A stretch of DNA of 64,000 nucleotides from Ignavibacteriales bacterium (GTDB taxonomy: Bacteria > Bacteroidota > Ignavibacteria > Ignavibacteriales > Melioribacteraceae). The notes beneath the pieces are model-generated. The model searched no databases. It was not told where the DNA came from and saw only the letters and a list, made by a program, of their open reading frames with translations. A program made the position numbers and the translations under genes. Each line of letters opens with the position of its first letter. The stretch's first letter is position 1. This document shows positions 1,498-10,166 of the stretch, piece after piece. The stretch covers positions 124,001 to 188,000 of the forward strand of contig JAIOYW010000008.1 in assembly GCA_021740915.1 (NCBI GenBank). Reading direction: 5' to 3'.

Positions 1498-4400
1498 ATG
1501 CTATTAGATAATAAAACCAAGACAGAAGACAGCGAATTTTACAAAGTATTCGACTTCATTAAAAACTATACAGAAAAAGGCGGACTTGACATTGTTACCG
1601 GATTTTTTTCGATTTATGCTTTGGCATTAATGAAGGATGATGTAAATCAAGCTGAGAAATTCAGGCTGATTTTGGGAAACCTTATGCAAGAAGAATCTCA
1701 ACTAAACAAAACTATTGACTTGCTTAATGGAGACCCAAGTATTACAAGTACATTTACTTTAAGTGCTTCGGCTCAAAAAGCAGTTGAATTTTTGAAACAG
1801 GAAAAAGTTTTAGTTAAAACAATTCAAAGGAATTTCTGTCACGCAAAGGCATACATCTATAACGACAAAGACACAAGAAAAAACTTTCATATAATTGGCA
1901 GCTCTAACTTGACAGATGCCGGACTTGGAATTAAAGACAGTAGCAATATTGAATTAAACACCGCTTCAACAGGTAACGACAACGATTATAAGGAAATAAA
2001 AAAATGGTTCAAACATCAATGGGATAATATTGCACAGGAAAAAATTGAGCTTCCTGATAAATCTAAAGTTGATGTAAAAAAACATTTGATAGAACTTATT
2101 ACAAACCTTTGGAAACCTTGGGAGCCAATTGATTTATATTATAAAGTCCTTTACGAATTATTCAAAGACGATTTACTTGCCCTTTCGACTGATGCCGAAT
2201 TTAAACGTGAAATTGCACATTTAGAGGAAACAATTATTTATAAAACTTTATTCCCTTACCAACAAAAAGGTGCAATCAGTCTGATTAAAATGCTTCAAAA
2301 GTTTAACGGAGCAATTCTTGCCGATGCAGTTGGTTTGGGTAAAACCTGGACTGCTTTGGCTGTAATGAAATATTTTGAAACCAAAGGATATACAGTAGTT
2401 TTATTTTGCCCTAAAAAGCTACGGATTAATTGGGAGCAATACCAATCTCACCGAGGTTCAAGGTTTGAAAAAGATGAGCTTGAATACTTTGTCAGAAACC
2501 ATACTGACCTGCAAGACGAAAGACTATCTACCGGTTATCCTGACTTCCCACTTATTAAGATTCAAAGGAAACAAAAACTGCTTATCGTTATTGATGAAAG
2601 CCACAATTTACGGAATGACAAATCTTCTCGTTACAAATTTTTAGTTGATAATGTTTTAATGCCCGAAAGGATTAAACGAGATGTAAAGGTTTTGCACCTG
2701 TCAGCAACACCCATCAACAACAAATTGATGGACATTAGGAATCAGTTTAAATTGATGACCAAAGGACAAGATGATGGTTTTAAGGAAACTGATTTGGAAA
2801 TTGAAAGTTTGGAAAATATTTTCCGGAATGCTCAAAAGGATTTTGGAGAATGGACAAGTCTTGACAATAGAAAAATTGCTGACTTTATAAGTAAACTTCC
2901 TTTAAAATTTGAGAAATTAACGGATGCTCTCATTGTTGCAAGAACGAGAAAACTAATTGAAAGCGAGTTTGGGGAAATGAATTTCCCGAAAAAAGGAGAC
3001 CCAATAAACAACTATATCACGCCTGACAAGATTGGGAACTTAAAATCATTTGACGATATACTGAATTCTTTGCGGGTAAACCTGACTGCTTATCGCCCAT
3101 CGGAATACATCAAAGACTTGAAAATTGAAAGTGTTTTGGAAAACCCGAAACAACGTGAAAAGTTTTTGGTCAAAATGATGTATATCCTATTAATGAAGCG
3201 ACTTGAATCAAGCTGGTATTCATTCAAACTTACAGTTGAAAATATCTTGAACCATCACACGAATGCTTTAGAAAAGGTAGAGAAATTCATTAAGACGAAA
3301 CAAGATACAACCATTGAAAGCGAACTAACTGGCGAAGAACAGGAAGAAATTGAAGAAACAGCAGCAGAGATTGATGGAGAAAACGAAGAGCCAATTACAC
3401 TTGGAAAGAAGAATCCAATTGCATTATCATCAATAACTAAGATTGACCTTTTCAAAAAGCATCTTGAAGCAGACATTGTAAAACTTAAAAAGCTAAAGGA
3501 AAACCTTGATAATTTTGAAAAGGATTTCAATGAGAAAAAGACCAACGACCCGAAATTAGATAAACTCATTGAACACATAAAAACAAAACAAAAGGGAGAA
3601 AACAAAAAAATATTAATTTTTACCGTATTCAAAGACACTGCAAAATTCTTATACGATAAACTGAAAGAAAATAAAATTGCTAACCTTGCCTATGTTTCCG
3701 GCTCAATCAGTGAAACAATAGACGGTTATACAGGCGAAAAATTTGAAATCATACTTGAACGATTTGCCCCTTTCACCAAACTCTACAACGAAAAAGAATG
3801 GAGTGAACTTTACGAAAAGGCAAATCTTGGAGATGAATTTAAGGAGGGAGATAAATGGAAAGTATCTTATGAAAAGTGGCTTGAAATTATTAGAAAACAC
3901 GATAAAAATACTCTAAAAAAAATTGAAGCTCCAATTAATATTCTTATTGCAACCGATTGTTTAAGCGAAGGACAGAACTTGCAGGACTGCGACACAGTTG
4001 TTAATTACGATATTCACTGGAATCCGGTTCGCCTGATACAACGAATGGGGCGTATTGACCGACTTGGTTCTCCGAATAAATTAATTTACGGAATAAATTT
4101 TTGGCCCGGGAAAAATTATGAAGATTATTTACGATTGAAATCAAGAGTTGAAAACCGTATGGCTTTGATGAGTGTTGTTGGTACTGAACTGGACGACAAT
4201 CTTACACCGGAATTTCAGAAAATGGTTGAAGACAATCCTTTGTTGCCAAAACAAGCTCAAAAAATGCTTGACCAGTTACAGATAACTTGGGATGATATAG
4301 AAGTAAACGATGAAACACTTGGCTTAAATGACTTGTCGCTTGAGCAATTCAGGCAGGAATTGTTTGAGTTTTTCAAAAAGAATGAGGAGTTTTTCAAGCA

Positions 4401-4872
4401 AATTCCAAATGGCGTTTTTACAGGTTTCAAATTTAAACCAAACAAAAAATGGAAGGAGTTACCCGATAGCGTTGTAGCTGTACTTGGTTATCCAAAACGA
4501 CCTGATGAAGTTACAAACCACGTTTACGAGGAAATTCATCTACTGCATCAATCTTTTGATGATAAAGGTAAAGGCGTTTTATTAAACAACAATCAGGAAA
4601 TTCTTGCTTTGTTGCGACATCACAAACTGGAAATTCGATATGTGCCAAAGCAAATTGAAAATTCCGATAAAGACATTATTCAAAAATTATCCGACTCTGT
4701 TTCCCATTGGGTTAAATCGCAAGCAATACCTGTAGCCGTGAACCAAATTCAGAATATGTTTACTGGCGACATAACACCAAAGAAAATTTCACCGGAACAA
4801 AAGAAACTTGAAGATAAGTTTAAACTTGAAAATTTTGATTTAATAAACTGGTTTGTAATATCAAATAAGTAA
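1498..4872 (+). CDS. PLD-nuclease / superfamily 2 helicase fusion, restriction-defence type
   Basis: A 1124-aa two-part protein. Residues 1 to about 190 hold one phospholipase-D-type HKD motif: HAK at 115-117 and GSSN at 134-137. A single HKD per chain implies that the active site forms by dimerisation, as in BfiI-type nucleases. From about residue 250 a SNF2/SF2 helicase follows: Walker A around ADAVGLGKT with Lys282, DESH at 366-369, motif III SATP near 402, and QRMGRIDR at 848-855 as motif VI. Residues 600-720 include a charged, coiled-coil-like acidic stretch. The gene lies 7 nt upstream of the KilA-N gene, and the operon ends with an adenine methyltransferase. The inferred role is the ATP-dependent translocase/nuclease of an R-M-like defence module; PLD/helicase/methylase combinations are known in NgoAVII/CglI-type and DISARM-type systems. 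The exact class is unknown. Confidence 0.8.
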   Translation: MLLDNKTKTEDSEFYKVFDFIKNYTEKGGLDIVTGFFSIYALALMKDDVNQAEKFRLILGNLMQEESQLNKTIDLLNGDPSITSTFTLSASAQKAVEFLKQEKVLVKTIQRNFCHAKAYIYNDKDTRKNFHIIGSSNLTDAGLGIKDSSNIELNTASTGNDNDYKEIKKWFKHQWDNIAQEKIELPDKSKVDVKKHLIELITNLWKPWEPIDLYYKVLYELFKDDLLALSTDAEFKREIAHLEETIIYKTLFPYQQKGAISLIKMLQKFNGAILADAVGLGKTWTALAVMKYFETKGYTVVLFCPKKLRINWEQYQSHRGSRFEKDELEYFVRNHTDLQDERLSTGYPDFPLIKIQRKQKLLIVIDESHNLRNDKSSRYKFLVDNVLMPERIKRDVKVLHLSATPINNKLMDIRNQFKLMTKGQDDGFKETDLEIESLENIFRNAQKDFGEWTSLDNRKIADFISKLPLKFEKLTDALIVARTRKLIESEFGEMNFPKKGDPINNYITPDKIGNLKSFDDILNSLRVNLTAYRPSEYIKDLKIESVLENPKQREKFLVKMMYILLMKRLESSWYSFKLTVENILNHHTNALEKVEKFIKTKQDTTIESELTGEEQEEIEETAAEIDGENEEPITLGKKNPIALSSITKIDLFKKHLEADIVKLKKLKENLDNFEKDFNEKKTNDPKLDKLIEHIKTKQKGENKKILIFTVFKDTAKFLYDKLKENKIANLAYVSGSISETIDGYTGEKFEIILERFAPFTKLYNEKEWSELYEKANLGDEFKEGDKWKVSYEKWLEIIRKHDKNTLKKIEAPINILIATDCLSEGQNLQDCDTVVNYDIHWNPVRLIQRMGRIDRLGSPNKLIYGINFWPGKNYEDYLRLKSRVENRMALMSVVGTELDDNLTPEFQKMVEDNPLLPKQAQKMLDQLQITWDDIEVNDETLGLNDLSLEQFRQELFEFFKKNEEFFKQIPNGVFTGFKFKPNKKWKELPDSVVAVLGYPKRPDEVTNHVYEEIHLLHQSFDDKGKGVLLNNNQEILALLRHHKLEIRYVPKQIENSDKDIIQKLSDSVSHWVKSQAIPVAVNQIQNMFTGDITPKKISPEQKKLEDKFKLENFDLINWFVISNK

Positions 4873-4879
4873 ACTTAAT

Positions 4880-5698
4880 ATGGCACAAAAAAGGAAAATA
4901 AAAGTCATACAAACTGAGATAACCATAATTTTTAAAGACAATATTGACTACATCAGTTTAACTGATATGACAATGAATTTTAATGAAGGCAGCGGGCTGA
5001 TCGGTAAGTGGATTACTAACAAAAACACATTGGAATACCTTGGTACATGGGAAAAAATCAATAACCCTGATTTTAATTACCCCGAATTCGGGGTAATTGA
5101 AAATGAGGCTGGCGTTAACCGTTTCATTATGTCTGTCGGGCAATGGATTGAAAGAACAAATTCAATAGGAATGTTAGTAAAACAGGGAAGATATGGTGGA
5201 ACATTCGCCCATAAAGATATTGCTTTTCACTTTGCAATGTGGCTTAGTCCGGAGTTTCAGATCTATTTGGTTAATGAATTCCAACGACTTAAAGCAGACG
5301 AAAATGACCGTCTAAAACTTGAATGGAATCTGCAACGAACTTTAGCCAAAGTAAATTATCGAATACATACCGATGCAATTAAAGAAAATCTTATCCCAAA
5401 AGAACTTTCAAAAACTGAAATACAATTTGTATATGCCGATGAAGCCGATATGTTGAATATGGCTTTGTTTGGAATAACTGCCAAACAATGGCGCGATGCA
5501 AATCCTGATACGGAAGGAAATATAAGAGACTATGCAACTATAGAACAACTGGTAGTATTATCAAATTTAGAAAGCGTTAATGCCGTTTTGATTCATCAGG
5601 GTTTATCTCAACCCGAACGATTAAAACAACTTAATAAAACTGCTATTCAGCAAATGAAATCCCTTGTTAACAATTTAAATGTAAGAAAATTAAAATAG
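4880..5698 (+). CDS. KilA-N domain protein in the defence operon
   Basis: A 272-aa protein whose first 115 residues match the KilA-N fold: ISLTDM near 25, the WITNKNTLEYLGTWE block, NEAGVNRF, and the closing block GGTFAHKDIAFHFAMWLSPE followed by YLVNEFQRLK. KilA-N is a DNA-binding domain common in phages and in genes beside restriction systems. The C-terminal half is a charged helical domain (YADEADMLNMALFG, then ATIEQLVVLSNLES) often found with this KilA-N type. It sits 7 nt after the helicase gene and 7 nt before the methyltransferase gene, so the three are very likely co-transcribed. A regulatory or DNA-recruitment role is inference. A perfect 24-bp palindrome lies inside the gene. Confidence 0.75.
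   Translation: MAQKRKIKVIQTEITIIFKDNIDYISLTDMTMNFNEGSGLIGKWITNKNTLEYLGTWEKINNPDFNYPEFGVIENEAGVNRFIMSVGQWIERTNSIGMLVKQGRYGGTFAHKDIAFHFAMWLSPEFQIYLVNEFQRLKADENDRLKLEWNLQRTLAKVNYRIHTDAIKENLIPKELSKTEIQFVYADEADMLNMALFGITAKQWRDANPDTEGNIRDYATIEQLVVLSNLESVNAVLIHQGLSQPERLKQLNKTAIQQMKSLVNNLNVRKLK
5075..5098. repeat. Perfect 24-bp palindrome inside the KilA-N gene
   Basis: The half-site AATTACCCCGAA is followed directly by its reverse complement TTCGGGGTAATT, with no spacer. It encodes NYPEFGVI in the KilA-N domain. As far as I know the family, the protein aligns through here without a gap, so this is probably not an inserted element. It could be an operator-like site or chance. Confidence 0.7.
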
Positions 5699-5705
5699 TT
5701 GAATT

Positions 5706-8700
5706 ATGAATCTAAATATATTCAATACTAATAATCTTTTTGAAGCAGCAACTAATCTTTTTCAGCAATTAGGTATTAAACTCAATTCAAATACTGCTGA
5801 AGCATTGCCTACAAAGGATTTATTGAAAAGCTTTTACAAAGATAACGAGGTTTTTAATTCTATTAAAAGTACCTATTTTATTGGTATTATTGACGATTCG
5901 GTGTTTCAGGCAACCGGAATGCCTGCCCGTTCCGCAGGCGGGTTTGATGTAAATTACAGCATAAAAGAAGCATTGCAACAAGGCGATAAAAACTACGATG
6001 GGCTTATGCTTTTCGCTTTGGAACTGACGAAGAAACCGACACGAACTGAAATATCTGAAATTACAAGGGCATTTAACCGCATAAGCCAAAAAATGCCGGT
6101 AGCGTTGGTATTAAAATATGCTATAGAAAAAGAAGCAGTCATTTCAATTGCTATAAGTGAACGATTCAAATATCTGCAAAACTGGAGGCAAGGAGAAAAA
6201 GCAGGTAAAGTTATTATCCTGAGAGATATTTTCACGAGCAACACACACGCAGGGCATAAACGTATATTGCTTGATCTTGTGAAACCGGCAGGAGTTACAA
6301 ACTATGCACAGCTTCACGCACAATGGTTAGAAGTGCTTGATGTAAACATTCTGAACAAAAAATTCTTTCAGGAGCTTGCCAACTGGTATTTCTGGGCAAT
6401 GGATAAAGTGCAATTTCCTGACGATATTGAGAAAAAGAAAGATGTACGAAACGCCACAAACCTGATTCGCCTTATTACTCGGGTAATTTTTATATGGTTC
6501 ATCAAAGAGAAACACCTTGTTCCGGCTTCATTGTTCAATGAAAAATATCTTGAAGATATTTTAAAGGATTTTCAGAAAAACAAAAAGTCATGCAATTATT
6601 ATCAGGCAATCCTGCAAAACTTGTTTTTTGGTACGCTTAATCAAAAAATGGATGAAAGAGATTTTGCAGAAGACCACAATCGTACAAACAAACTTGACCA
6701 AGGTATAAAAAACAAATATCGCTATCCGGATAAATTCAATATTTCCAAAAAAGAGATTATTGATTTATTCAAAGACATCCCATTTCTGAATGGTGGTTTG
6801 TTCGATTGCCTTGATAAGTTTGATGAAGAAAAACTTGAAAAGGGAAAGAAAGAACAAATATTTGTTGATGGGTTTACCCGCCTTGATGGCAAACAAGCCA
6901 TTGTCCCCGATTATTTGTTTTTTGGAGAAGAGGTTGAAGTTGATTTAACAGAGTATTACGACCCAGAAGCGAAAAAGCCAATTATTAAAAAAGTAAATGG
7001 ATTGTTTCATATTCTAAATAGTTTCAAATTTACAGTAGCTGAAAACACACCAATAGAAGAAGAAATTGCCCTTGACCCTGAATTGTTGGGCAAAGTGTTT
7101 GAAAACCTGCTGGCAAGTTATAACCCCGAAACTAAAACAACTGCACGAAAACAAACCGGAAGCTTTTATACGCTCCGTGAGATTGTCAATTATATGGTTG
7201 ATGAATCATTGATTGAATACCTGAAAAGTGTCGTGAGCATCCCTGCTCACGAATTAAATCAAAAGCAAGATGCTTTTGAAACCTTTGAAACTTTTTTCAA
7301 TCCCCACAACGAGATACAAGTTCACATTGGAAATCTTCCACATTGGCAGCAGGAAAATGTATGGTACTTTGTAACATTCAGGTTAGCCGATTCTATCCCT
7401 GCCGAAGTTGCTGAACAAATTAAAGCAGAAAGGGAAATCTGGCTTAAAAATAACAAAAAGAATGAAAAAGGTGAATACACAAAAGAACAGATAAAAGAAT
7501 ACTACCACCTTTTTTCCGACAGAATAGAACAGCTTCTGAATAACGGCAGGGGCAGTTGTGTCCTTAAAAATCCTGACATTTCTAAAATTGTTGCGGATGC
7601 TTTGAATCATTTTAATAATCAAAGATATGTGTTAGATGAATGGGTAATAATGCCTAATCATGTGCATATTCTTTTCAAACCTTTAGGTGAGAATAAGCTA
7701 CCTGATATTCTCCATTCGTGGAAATCTTTTACAGCCAATGAAATTAATAAGGTAACCGGCAATAAAGGTCAGTTATGGATGCACGAATCTTATGACCATA
7801 TTGTAGGAAATGAAAATGCTTTACATGCAATAAGAAATTATATCAGACAAAATCCTGTGAAGGCTAATTTGAAGGAGGGAGAGTATTTATTAAGCAGAAG
7901 CAGGGATGCTTCTGATACACTGACCAAAAGCAGGGATGCTTCCGGAACTTTTGAGGCTCGTTTGAGGGATTTGTTTTCATACAATGACGAAGGCAATCCT
8001 CTTAATTCAAAAGAAACCGATGAACTTATTGAGGCAATAAATAATGCGAAAATACTTGATCCTGCCTGCGGTTCGGGTGCTTTCCCGATGGGTGTTTTAC
8101 ATAAAATGGTGCATTTACTCCAAAAACTCGACCCCGGTAATGTGAAATGGAAAGCACAACAAAAAGAAAAAATCATTGGAAATCAGATTAAAGAACTCGA
8201 AAAAGATAAAAAAGCCATAGCCGGTTTAAGCGATAAAGCTGTTCGCGAAAAAGCGATTCAGGCGGTGGATGAACGTTTGAAAGAAATTGATGAAATTTTT
8301 GAAAGTAAAAACAATTTTGACGACTACGCCCGTAAACTCTACCTCATTGAAAACTGCATTTATGGCATAGACATACAGCCCATTGCCGTTCAGATTTCAA
8401 AACTCCGCTTCTTTATTTCATTGATAATTGACCAAAAAGTACATCCATCATCTTTGATGGATGAAAATAAAAACCCAGCATCCCTATTGGATGGTAAACC
8501 GAAAGAAAACAGAGGTATCCGCCCATTACCAAACCTTGAAACGAAGTTTGTGGCAGCCAATACGCTGATAAGTTTGGAAATACCAACAACCGATTTATTT
8601 TCTGAAAACAACCCCATTAAACTTTTGCAAGAGCAACTTAAAGCCACACGACACGAATATTTTAATGCGAAAACAAGAAAAGACAAGCTTCATTTACAAC

Positions 8701-10166
8701 AGCAGGATAAAGAACTTCGCAAAAAAATTGCGGCTCAGATAAGCGATACCTTAATAAACAAAAAACAAGAAGAAATCAAAAGCCTCGAAAAGCAATTATC
8801 CGATGCAAAAAAGAAACTGGTTCAAATAGAAACCGGACCCGAACAAAAGGAAAGCTTTGAAAGCACAAATATTTTCGGTGAAACTGAAACCACAGTTATT
8901 GATAAAAAGAAAGAAAAAATAAAAGCCCAGAAAAGCACTATTTCATTTATTGAAAAACAAATAAACTCAATGAAAGCAGCCGATAACAAAGATGCCATAC
9001 AAAAAGTTGCCCAACAGATTTCATCTTTCGACCCTTACGACCAAAACCACTTTGCCAACTGGTTTGAACCCGAATGGATGTTTGGATTAGTGCCACAAAA
9101 TGGCGATACCGGTGTTTTTGATATTGTGATTGGAAATCCGCCTTATATTAGAAAAACACAATTAAATGATGTTTTTAAAAAATACATAGATGATCATTAT
9201 TTTTCTGCATACAAGCAATATGATATCTATATTTTCTTTAATGAATTTTCATTAAATATTTTAAAAGTTAATGGTGTTTTTACCTTTATTCAACCCAACA
9301 AATTTTTATCCGCTGAATATGGTAATAAACTTTGCTGTTTATTAAAGAATAATACAACCATCTTGTTAATCTGGAATGTGTCTTTAGATGGCGTGTTTGA
9401 AGCGTCAGTATATCCATATGTATATCTATTTAAGAAAAAATCAATTAACAATAAAATAACTTCAAAGACTTTTAATCTTTTAGAATACGCAGTAAAACTA
9501 ATAGGATTTGATAACTTTAAAACTTCATATTCAATAATAAATAAAATTCAATCTAAATCAATACTAATTAAAGAGGTTGCCAAAACAATAAAAAGAGGCT
9601 TAGCGAATACTAAAGTTAATTTTTACGACAGAGGAAAATATAGTGGCATAAAATCCACTCAAATAAATAAAGCATATATTAAACCAATTGCTAACACAAA
9701 ATTTAATTATGTTGTAAAATCTGAAGAAAAAGCTAAAGAAATTGAGTTTTCTAAAAAATTATTCCTCTTGCCCCGAACCGTTTTAAAAATAAGAGCAACT
9801 TATAAAGATAAAACCGACCACATTTTAGATAGGATATATTATTTTGAAAATAATAATATGAACTATGATGACGATTTTATTCTTGGAATATTAAATTCAA
9901 AACTTACAACTTATTACTATGAACAATTATATGGAAGTACTAAAATTGGCGGTGGTTATATAGACTTAAAGGGAAATCAGATTGAAAATTTACCAATTCC
10001 AAAAATTTCTAAGCACGAGCAACAATCAATTTCTTTAATTGTGAAAGAAATTATCAAAAAACCTAATGCAAACTCTTCAAAACTTGAAAAGCAAATAGAC
10101 GATTTGGTTTACAAGCTATATGATTTAACAGAAGAAGAAATAAAAATAATTGAAGGCAATGAATAG
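5706..10166 (+). CDS. Eco57I/type IIG-like adenine-N6 DNA methyltransferase with an internal RAYT transposase domain
   Basis: A 1486-aa protein. The N-terminal region (1 to about 450) is the long domain usual in Eco57I-like enzymes. PELLGKVFENLL and KQTGSFYTLREIVNYMVDES (about 460-500) lead into the catalytic domain. SAM motif I DPACGSG starts at residue 785, GIDIQPIAVQISKLRF follows, and motif IV NPPY starts at Asn1144, as in N6-adenine methylases. The C-terminus has a target-recognition region ending in a LEKQIDDLVYKLYDL helix. No clear PD-ExK nuclease motif was identified. Residues of about 510-750 do not belong to this family: they form a full HUH/Y1 transposase inserted between LIEYLK and LRDLFSY. 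Without it the protein would be near the usual ~1240 aa. Smaller in-frame palindromes occur at 5921 and 8442. Whether methylation survives is unknown. Confidence 0.85.
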   Translation: MNLNIFNTNNLFEAATNLFQQLGIKLNSNTAEALPTKDLLKSFYKDNEVFNSIKSTYFIGIIDDSVFQATGMPARSAGGFDVNYSIKEALQQGDKNYDGLMLFALELTKKPTRTEISEITRAFNRISQKMPVALVLKYAIEKEAVISIAISERFKYLQNWRQGEKAGKVIILRDIFTSNTHAGHKRILLDLVKPAGVTNYAQLHAQWLEVLDVNILNKKFFQELANWYFWAMDKVQFPDDIEKKKDVRNATNLIRLITRVIFIWFIKEKHLVPASLFNEKYLEDILKDFQKNKKSCNYYQAILQNLFFGTLNQKMDERDFAEDHNRTNKLDQGIKNKYRYPDKFNISKKEIIDLFKDIPFLNGGLFDCLDKFDEEKLEKGKKEQIFVDGFTRLDGKQAIVPDYLFFGEEVEVDLTEYYDPEAKKPIIKKVNGLFHILNSFKFTVAENTPIEEEIALDPELLGKVFENLLASYNPETKTTARKQTGSFYTLREIVNYMVDESLIEYLKSVVSIPAHELNQKQDAFETFETFFNPHNEIQVHIGNLPHWQQENVWYFVTFRLADSIPAEVAEQIKAEREIWLKNNKKNEKGEYTKEQIKEYYHLFSDRIEQLLNNGRGSCVLKNPDISKIVADALNHFNNQRYVLDEWVIMPNHVHILFKPLGENKLPDILHSWKSFTANEINKVTGNKGQLWMHESYDHIVGNENALHAIRNYIRQNPVKANLKEGEYLLSRSRDASDTLTKSRDASGTFEARLRDLFSYNDEGNPLNSKETDELIEAINNAKILDPACGSGAFPMGVLHKMVHLLQKLDPGNVKWKAQQKEKIIGNQIKELEKDKKAIAGLSDKAVREKAIQAVDERLKEIDEIFESKNNFDDYARKLYLIENCIYGIDIQPIAVQISKLRFFISLIIDQKVHPSSLMDENKNPASLLDGKPKENRGIRPLPNLETKFVAANTLISLEIPTTDLFSENNPIKLLQEQLKATRHEYFNAKTRKDKLHLQQQDKELRKKIAAQISDTLINKKQEEIKSLEKQLSDAKKKLVQIETGPEQKESFESTNIFGETETTVIDKKKEKIKAQKSTISFIEKQINSMKAADNKDAIQKVAQQISSFDPYDQNHFANWFEPEWMFGLVPQNGDTGVFDIVIGNPPYIRKTQLNDVFKKYIDDHYFSAYKQYDIYIFFNEFSLNILKVNGVFTFIQPNKFLSAEYGNKLCCLLKNNTTILLIWNVSLDGVFEASVYPYVYLFKKKSINNKITSKTFNLLEYAVKLIGFDNFKTSYSIINKIQSKSILIKEVAKTIKRGLANTKVNFYDRGKYSGIKSTQINKAYIKPIANTKFNYVVKSEEKAKEIEFSKKLFLLPRTVLKIRATYKDKTDHILDRIYYFENNNMNYDDDFILGILNSKLTTYYYEQLYGSTKIGGGYIDLKGNQIENLPIPKISKHEQQSISLIVKEIIKKPNANSSKLEKQIDDLVYKLYDLTEEEIKIIEGNE
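5921..5939 (+). repeat. In-frame palindrome GCCTGC/GCAGGC in the methyltransferase gene
   Basis: GCCTGC, a 7-nt loop and GCAGGC encode part of MPARSAGG at about residues 71-78, a low-complexity turn within an otherwise ordinary N-terminal domain. The GC-rich block stands out from its AT-rich surroundings and resembles GTCTGCC...GGCAGGC at about 1284-1302, so it may be a member of a small dispersed palindrome family inserted in frame. Confidence 0.45.
7232..7277. repeat. Left REP-like hairpins flanking the RAYT
   Basis: Two perfect hairpins lie in tandem: CGTGAGCA-tccc-TGCTCACG (7232-7251) and AAAAGCA-aga-TGCTTTT (7261-7277). The core GAGCATCCCTGCTC is the reverse complement of the GCAGGGATGC core at the right end of the transposase insertion, so the two ends are in inverted orientation, as in REP/BIME elements mobilised by RAYTs. 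Confidence 0.75.
7896..7941. repeat. Right REP-like hairpins flanking the RAYT
   Basis: AGAAGCA-ggga-TGCTTCT (7896-7913) and AAGCA-ggga-TGCTT (7928-7941) form two direct copies sharing AGCAGGGATGCTTC with a short spacer. They are translated as SRDASDT and SRDASGT. The core is inverted relative to the left hairpin at 7232-7251. Confidence 0.75.
8442..8463 (+). repeat. In-frame palindrome CATCCATCA/TGATGGATG in the methyltransferase gene
   Basis: A perfect 9-bp stem with a 4-nt loop, followed by a second weaker hairpin GCATCC-ctatt-GGATGG near 8478-8492. Together they encode HPSSLMDENKNPASLLDGK, just before the conserved GIRPLPNLETKFVAANTL block. The weak hairpin carries AGCATCCCT, shared with the RAYT-flanking hairpins, so it may be a degenerate REP inserted in frame. 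Confidence 0.5.

Follow-up and report, generated by a model that had tools for sequence, protein, structure and literature searches.

The 64,000-nucleotide stretch of Ignavibacteriales DNA analysed here (the window) harbours a methyltransferase gene in which a complete REP-associated tyrosine transposase (RAYT) is carried in frame, and this insert is not a one-off. It is probably an in-frame REP/RAYT element (a 'REPtron') that resides inside host proteins, intein-like but non-splicing, and spreads among host genes.

Positions 5706-10166 of the plus strand were called as a single uninterrupted ORF of 1486 aa. A Pfam scan of the whole chain matched Eco57I (aa 883-1231, E 4e-30), TaqI_C (aa 1340-1431, E 4e-9), Y1_Tnp (aa 637-716) and MmeI_Mtase, which were all the families found, and it recognised no endonuclease domain of the methylase. 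PADLOC reported a type IIG restriction-methyltransferase (3.4e-50), and the chain has the features of this Eco57I-like type, with motifs I (DPACGSGAF) and IV (NPPY) together with the Eco57I and TaqI_C domains. The methylase fold was matched to PglX, CamA, M.BseCI and BsaXI. The predicted structure of the methylase core plus insert (mean pLDDT 69, pTM 0.58) was too weak for domain packing to be read from it. The features of the region are as follows.

1498-4872 (+): PLD and SNF2 helicase gene upstream, in an operon-like array; HKD+Snf2 in PADLOC (ORF call, PADLOC, Pfam)
4880-5698 (+): KilA-N domain gene, 7 nt upstream of the fused ORF; PDC-S22 in PADLOC (ORF call, PADLOC, Pfam)
5706-10166 (+): fused ORF of 1486 aa, Eco57I-like type IIG-type adenine methyltransferase with in-frame RAYT (ORF call, PADLOC, Pfam)
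7164-7190 (+): methylase motif X region FYTLREIV, with Leu490 (codon 7173-7175) in place of the near-invariant Pro of FYTP (sequence, alignment)
7227-7952 (+): inserted element, REP hairpin to REP hairpin, host frame open throughout, edges accurate to about 10 nt either way (filled versus empty methylases, inverted repeat)
7231-7252 (+): left REP-type hairpin TCGTGAGCA-TCCC-TGCTCACGA, 5' tag GTGTC, translated within SVVSIPAHE (sequence, REP alignment, folding z -8.2)
7293-7865 (+): RAYT core, aa 530-720, TnpA-REP fold (alignment, model, Foldseek, VIA-align, profile search)
7659-7667 (+): HUH motif codons His652-Val-His654 (invariant histidines in alignment)
7839-7853 (+): catalytic Tyr712 to Asn716 (YIRQN), start of the RAYT signature YIRQNP (alignment; matches YIYINP of 4er8)
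7895-7918 (-): right REP-type hairpin 1 including its tag GTATC, opposite orientation, translated as SRDASDT (inverted repeat, REP alignment, folding)
7925-7948 (-): right REP-type hairpin 2 including its tag GTTCC, opposite orientation, translated as SRDASGT (inverted repeat, REP alignment, folding)
8058-8084 (+): methylase motif I DPACGSGAF, the first conserved motif 3' of the insert (sequence, alignment)
9135-9146 (+): methylase motif IV NPPY (alignment)

The insert separates motif X from motif I; it occupies a short loop that follows a segment ending in YMVDESLIEYLK and precedes RLRDLFSY. An earlier sequence-only reading had described a complete RAYT within the methylase frame with both junctions open, and the ORF with its Eco57I, TaqI_C and Y1_Tnp domains bears this out. 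Its limits for the insert, 7232-7945, were right to within a few codons; with the REP hairpins the element is slightly longer, at about 7227-7952. His652, His654 and Tyr712 are located where that reading had placed them. As Leu490 replaces a motif X proline that is near-invariant among relatives, the window's own methylase may be weakened or impaired. The tightly packed genes for the PLD-SNF2 helicase, the KilA-N protein and the IIG-type methylase (1498-10166) resemble a defence operon.

The identity of the insert as a RAYT, complete and in frame, was confirmed by several comparisons. Its HUH motif is NHVH, and both histidines, with the Tyr and Asn of YIRQNP, were invariant in an alignment of 12 members. 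A PDB profile search with the insert ranked TnpA-REP 4er8 first (E 1.5e-4). The predicted RAYT model (pLDDT 76.8) had 4er8 as its sole Foldseek match under 0.001 (E 2.2e-4), and its VIA-align superposition on 4er8 gave Z 11.6 and rmsd 2.5 over 118 aligned residues. In this comparison 4er8 scored level with the IS608 transposases (Z 11-12), and unrelated rows reached Z 8.8 at most. The RAYT is under purifying selection, with dN/dS values of 0.06-0.16 where dS was unsaturated and could be estimated. The embedded RAYT is apparently a working DNA-nicking transposase. In one of the other methylases with an insert (L142) the catalytic Tyr is replaced by His, so some copies are decaying. In 7 of 13 filled methylases (those with the insert), the interval from the insertion site to the start of the RAYT core contained no in-frame ATG, GTG or TTG, and the transposase can therefore be produced there only as part of the fusion. 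The window insert has one in-frame GTG in this interval, so that separate initiation is formally possible for this copy.

The left REP hairpin and the right ones are inverted with respect to each other, and all are translated in the fusion (peptides SIPA and SRDAS). Among 34 REP units from the methylase inserts, the tag 5' of the hairpin was GTNYC, with the G, T and C each present in 33 units. Folding of five REP units as single-stranded DNA gave z values of -2.1 to -8.2. The window's genome has a single copy of the RAYT element and no dispersed REP family; the sole exact REP match elsewhere in it lies within an unrelated gene and looks coincidental. Dispersal of REPs across the host genomes was likewise rejected, since matches in a 10-mer search exceeded the control, yet most of the 20 sites inspected were ordinary coding sequence. 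The sites that stood out were the known insert sites, an array (L222) and an in-frame copy (L240). The array, in the L080 genome (G521:C5:19864-20054), comprises six REP-like units with a spacing of about 36 nt, apparently outside recognised genes. The in-frame copy is in the L083 genome (G524:C716, about 1185), in the adjoining SNF2 helicase gene (VPEASLL), and REPs thus seem to spread within the operon.

Several REP-like or palindrome-like sequences were observed at other places in these genes. Three REP units (L081:6229-6312) and one (L080:6229-6240) are in frame within the RAYT itself, upstream of HUH. The L089 methylase ORF (5302-8904) encodes a REP-like peptide, SPSKDASDTL, in its C-terminal (specificity) half, away from the RAYT insert. 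The methylase loops of L035 and L079 contain short palindrome-like peptides (SAEASAKAE and PPAERAG), in the same loop region and from different repeat families. In L087 (F. branchiophilum) the methylase's own repeat peptide, SSFQLEA, occurs again at its C-terminus near 8790, up to the stop codon. The empty methylase (without the insert) L220 contains a candidate REP scar, NEDASVTL.

A scan of 84,980 species, with one genome each and the RAYT as query, placed the nearest relatives (57-76% identity) in L078-L087 and L089, where every RAYT is in the same methylase family and in the same place, after YMVDESL..YL(K). Whole-genome searches added four more filled methylases (L142, L171, L174 and L244); the site in L174 is shifted by several residues relative to the others, which suggests at least one separate insertion event. 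Empty methylases were common. In G067 the N-terminal part of the methylase is 72% identical, with nothing but a short loop at the insert site. Motif X and motif I were 56-96 residues apart in empty methylases, against about 283-377 when the insert was present. The phylum and order samples contained 30 distinct genomes with a close methylase, of which 4 were filled. The search for homologues with and without the insert, proposed in the sequence-only reading, returned both kinds, and that reading proved incomplete in that the insertion is not unique: the same insert occupies the same site in many methylases, and its relatives occur in unrelated proteins. Neither the whole protein nor the RAYT alignment found a relative among viral contigs; the element had no match in phage records and only two distant matches among plasmids, so there is no sign of carriage by phages or plasmids.

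Assembly or annotation artefact is a very improbable explanation. Most of the relatives are metagenome-assembled genomes, which would favour it. However, the same junctions, with frames fully open, were found in many independent and divergent assemblies as well as in L087, an isolate grown in culture (Flavobacterium branchiophilum NBRC 15030). Because of these open junctions, and because insert-free methylases exist, a chance or assembly artefact was dismissed, and the assembly junction or frame break that the sequence-only reading had named as a way to undo the fusion is contradicted.

A tree of the methylase N-flank was built from 36 genes, 14 filled and 22 empty; this set is enriched for filled genes, many having been fetched via the RAYT. 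The filled state required 10 changes on this tree, five of them forced by well-supported branches, and showed no excess clustering, since 129 of 500 shuffles gave a value as low. A single clade of filled methylases was rejected (p-AU 9e-49), and the methylase tree thereby rejects an old, vertically inherited domain. The methylase-embedded RAYTs formed one clade save for one free-standing member (L088), and here a single clade was not rejected (p 0.10). The RAYT data rejected L078 and L080 as sisters (p 1e-4), the window with L083 (p 0.0045) and the window with L083 and L079 (p 0.009), and the N-flank data rejected the window with L078 and L089 (p 2.5e-8); these p-values are only guides, as the groups were picked after the trees were seen.

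Pairwise comparisons were made across the junctions. L078 and L080 share 92% identity in the N-flank, 84% in the C-flank and 76% in the RAYT, and in a sliding comparison their identity falls near the insert edges and then recovers. L079 and L080 are 85% identical in the RAYT and 58% and 53% identical in the flanks. For L080 and L081, dS was 0.23 in the RAYT versus 0.62 and 1.03 in the flanks; synonymous distances are free of protein constraint, and this result agrees with the tree conflict. The conflict between the RAYT and methylase trees, together with the change in synonymous distance at the junctions, shows that the RAYT is transferred separately from the gene that hosts it. The sequence-only reading had held that many methylases sharing the domain at one site would make it an old domain. 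Many do share the site, but the patchy distribution and the tree conflict indicate recurrent or horizontal insertion instead. No recent insertion pair (the same strain with and without the insert) was found.

Relatives of the RAYT were also found inside other host proteins. In an even phylum sample of 395 genomes, the eight best RAYT matches were all in frames of 468-1487 aa, and the weaker matches among those listed were all in frames of about 170-270 aa. All eight hosts are genes of DNA modification or restriction: two encode IIG methylases, three encode HsdR and three encode DUF1156 methylases, among which the insert occupies two different sites. The phylum to which Pontiellaceae strain B12227 (G530) belongs gave 131 listed RAYT matches, 42 of them in frames of at least 400 aa; fourteen of the 42 were checked by Pfam and all fourteen had host domains in the same frame. 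These hosts were HsdR (one at the site known from the 395-genome sample and one at another), a IIG methylase with the insert where the window's methylase has it, radical-SAM/B12 proteins (two sites), HypF, PriA, adenosine deaminase, mevalonate diphosphate decarboxylase, a PLP decarboxylase, a NUDIX protein, and fumarase and glucuronyl esterase, both C-terminal. Some of the host proteins carrying RAYT relatives are essential. Three genomes were searched for PriA; each has a single PriA gene, in which an in-frame RAYT lies between the 3'-DNA-binding domain and the following part; as it is the sole PriA found in each genome, PriA with its guest is presumably functional.

The mechanism that we consider probable would be as follows. 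Translation would run through the element from the left REP to the right one and add a domain to a permissive methylase loop, so that the host enzyme is extended and not disrupted, and it would probably stay active with the guest inside. The host gene would provide the promoter, start and stop for the embedded RAYT. The HUH/Tyr domain may recognise its own REP hairpins as single-stranded DNA and then nick them, which would let the element, or the stretch of methylase gene carrying it, spread horizontally to the same loop of other methylases, much as inteins with homing nucleases do, minus the protein splicing. The DNA step might be transposition, or recombination stimulated by nicking through the conserved host flanks. 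The transmitted form would be an open hairpin-to-hairpin cassette, persisting at loop positions in which a host protein can accommodate an extra domain. Such a guest would benefit from restriction-modification genes, which are large and pass from one species to another. It is also possible, though doubtful, that there is a general class of start-less and stop-less REP/RAYT cassettes that live only as translated guests and home actively to permissive loops in restriction-modification and essential genes, perhaps via a DNA-binding host (methylase, HsdR, PriA) that reaches single-stranded or cognate DNA.

The sharp exchange at the junctions can also be explained by ordinary recombination between conserved motifs, and the RAYT might then be a passive passenger, inserted long ago by rare events, its transposase idle, and moving only when methylase segments recombine at these motifs. 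The two highly conserved motifs flanking the insert would be good recombination substrates, type IIG genes are mosaic, with a C-terminal specificity part that is also strongly variable, and L142 has lost the catalytic Tyr. This explanation is nevertheless unlikely, as dN/dS is 0.06-0.16, HUH and Tyr are invariant in almost all copies, and independent insertions occurred in other genes and sites (two each in HsdR, DUF1156 and radical SAM). The conserved catalytic residues and purifying selection would also be expected if the restriction-modification enzyme had taken on the RAYT as a functional domain, with the HUH/Tyr site of the RAYT nicking or binding DNA in aid of restriction, repair or specificity; the lack of an independent start codon in half of the inserts, and the location of all eight embedded RAYTs of the even phylum sample in methylase or restriction genes, point the same way. 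However, most family methylases are without the insert (only 4 of 30 genomes having the methylase are filled), its presence is scattered, the RAYT swaps independently of the enzyme, and PriA, HypF, mevalonate decarboxylase and other unrelated hosts are left unexplained. Recruitment is accordingly judged quite improbable, and nothing points in particular to a fused nicking and methylation activity. A mobile in-frame guest remains the preferred reading.

The usual view of RAYTs is of domesticated transposases, free-standing and single-copy, and how they spread is difficult to account for. In-frame RAYTs, repeated at fixed sites and switching between divergent hosts, suggest a route for the persistence and spread of a transposase, by hitch-hiking on mobile or indispensable genes. 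They also form a natural collection of domain-insertion fusions that seem to be tolerated even when PriA is single-copy, and they offer a case in which homing by a single-strand HUH nuclease can be tested directly. No description of host genes with an in-frame RAYT or other HUH transposase was found in the literature searched, mostly outside subscription journals and preprints, in keeping with the sequence-only reading, which knew of no characterised example of a RAYT in a methylase.

The insert resembles the RAYT/TnpA-REP proteins (Quentin et al. 2018, PMC6006769) in its HUH and YIxxNP motifs, TnpA-REP fold, single copy and inverted REP hairpins at the ends, and its Tyr motif YIRQNP fits RAYT subclass 2.7, YI[LR][NQ]NP (PMC6006769). 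Unlike those RAYTs it is not free-standing; it is made as part of a host protein, lacks its own stop codon and often its own start, and its REP tag is GTNYC, whereas the canonical RAYT guide tag is GT[AG]G (PMC6006769). That survey discarded RAYT proteins that were longer than expected, taking them for fused genes or faulty annotation (PMC6006769), and large surveys may have filtered out proteins such as these. HUH nicking of single-stranded REP by TnpA-REP is known (PMC8266576), and in-frame REPs have been described within RAYT genes of subclass 2.4 (PMC6006769) and, as short elements, within genes (Di Nocera et al. 2013, PMC3733652). These intragenic REPs (PMC3733652) and the Rickettsia palindromic elements are likewise palindromes in frame, translated in proteins and tolerated in loops, but they are short and non-autonomous, whereas here a whole transposase is embedded too. 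Among type IIG (Eco57I-like) enzymes, PglX/BrxX and CamA, which share the methylase motifs and the Eco57I and TaqI_C domains, the fusion differs in the RAYT between motif X and motif I, in having no recognised nuclease domain and in adjoining a PLD-SNF2 helicase gene. Inteins with homing endonucleases are also in-frame guests at fixed sites of conserved genes, with a patchy distribution, horizontal spread and a nuclease domain, and the same-site patchy spread in conserved genes was found here. A Hint splicing domain was absent from the Pfam scan of the whole chain, with no sign of splicing; in contrast to inteins, the guest apparently stays part of the mature protein, and its nuclease is of the single-strand HUH/Tyr type.
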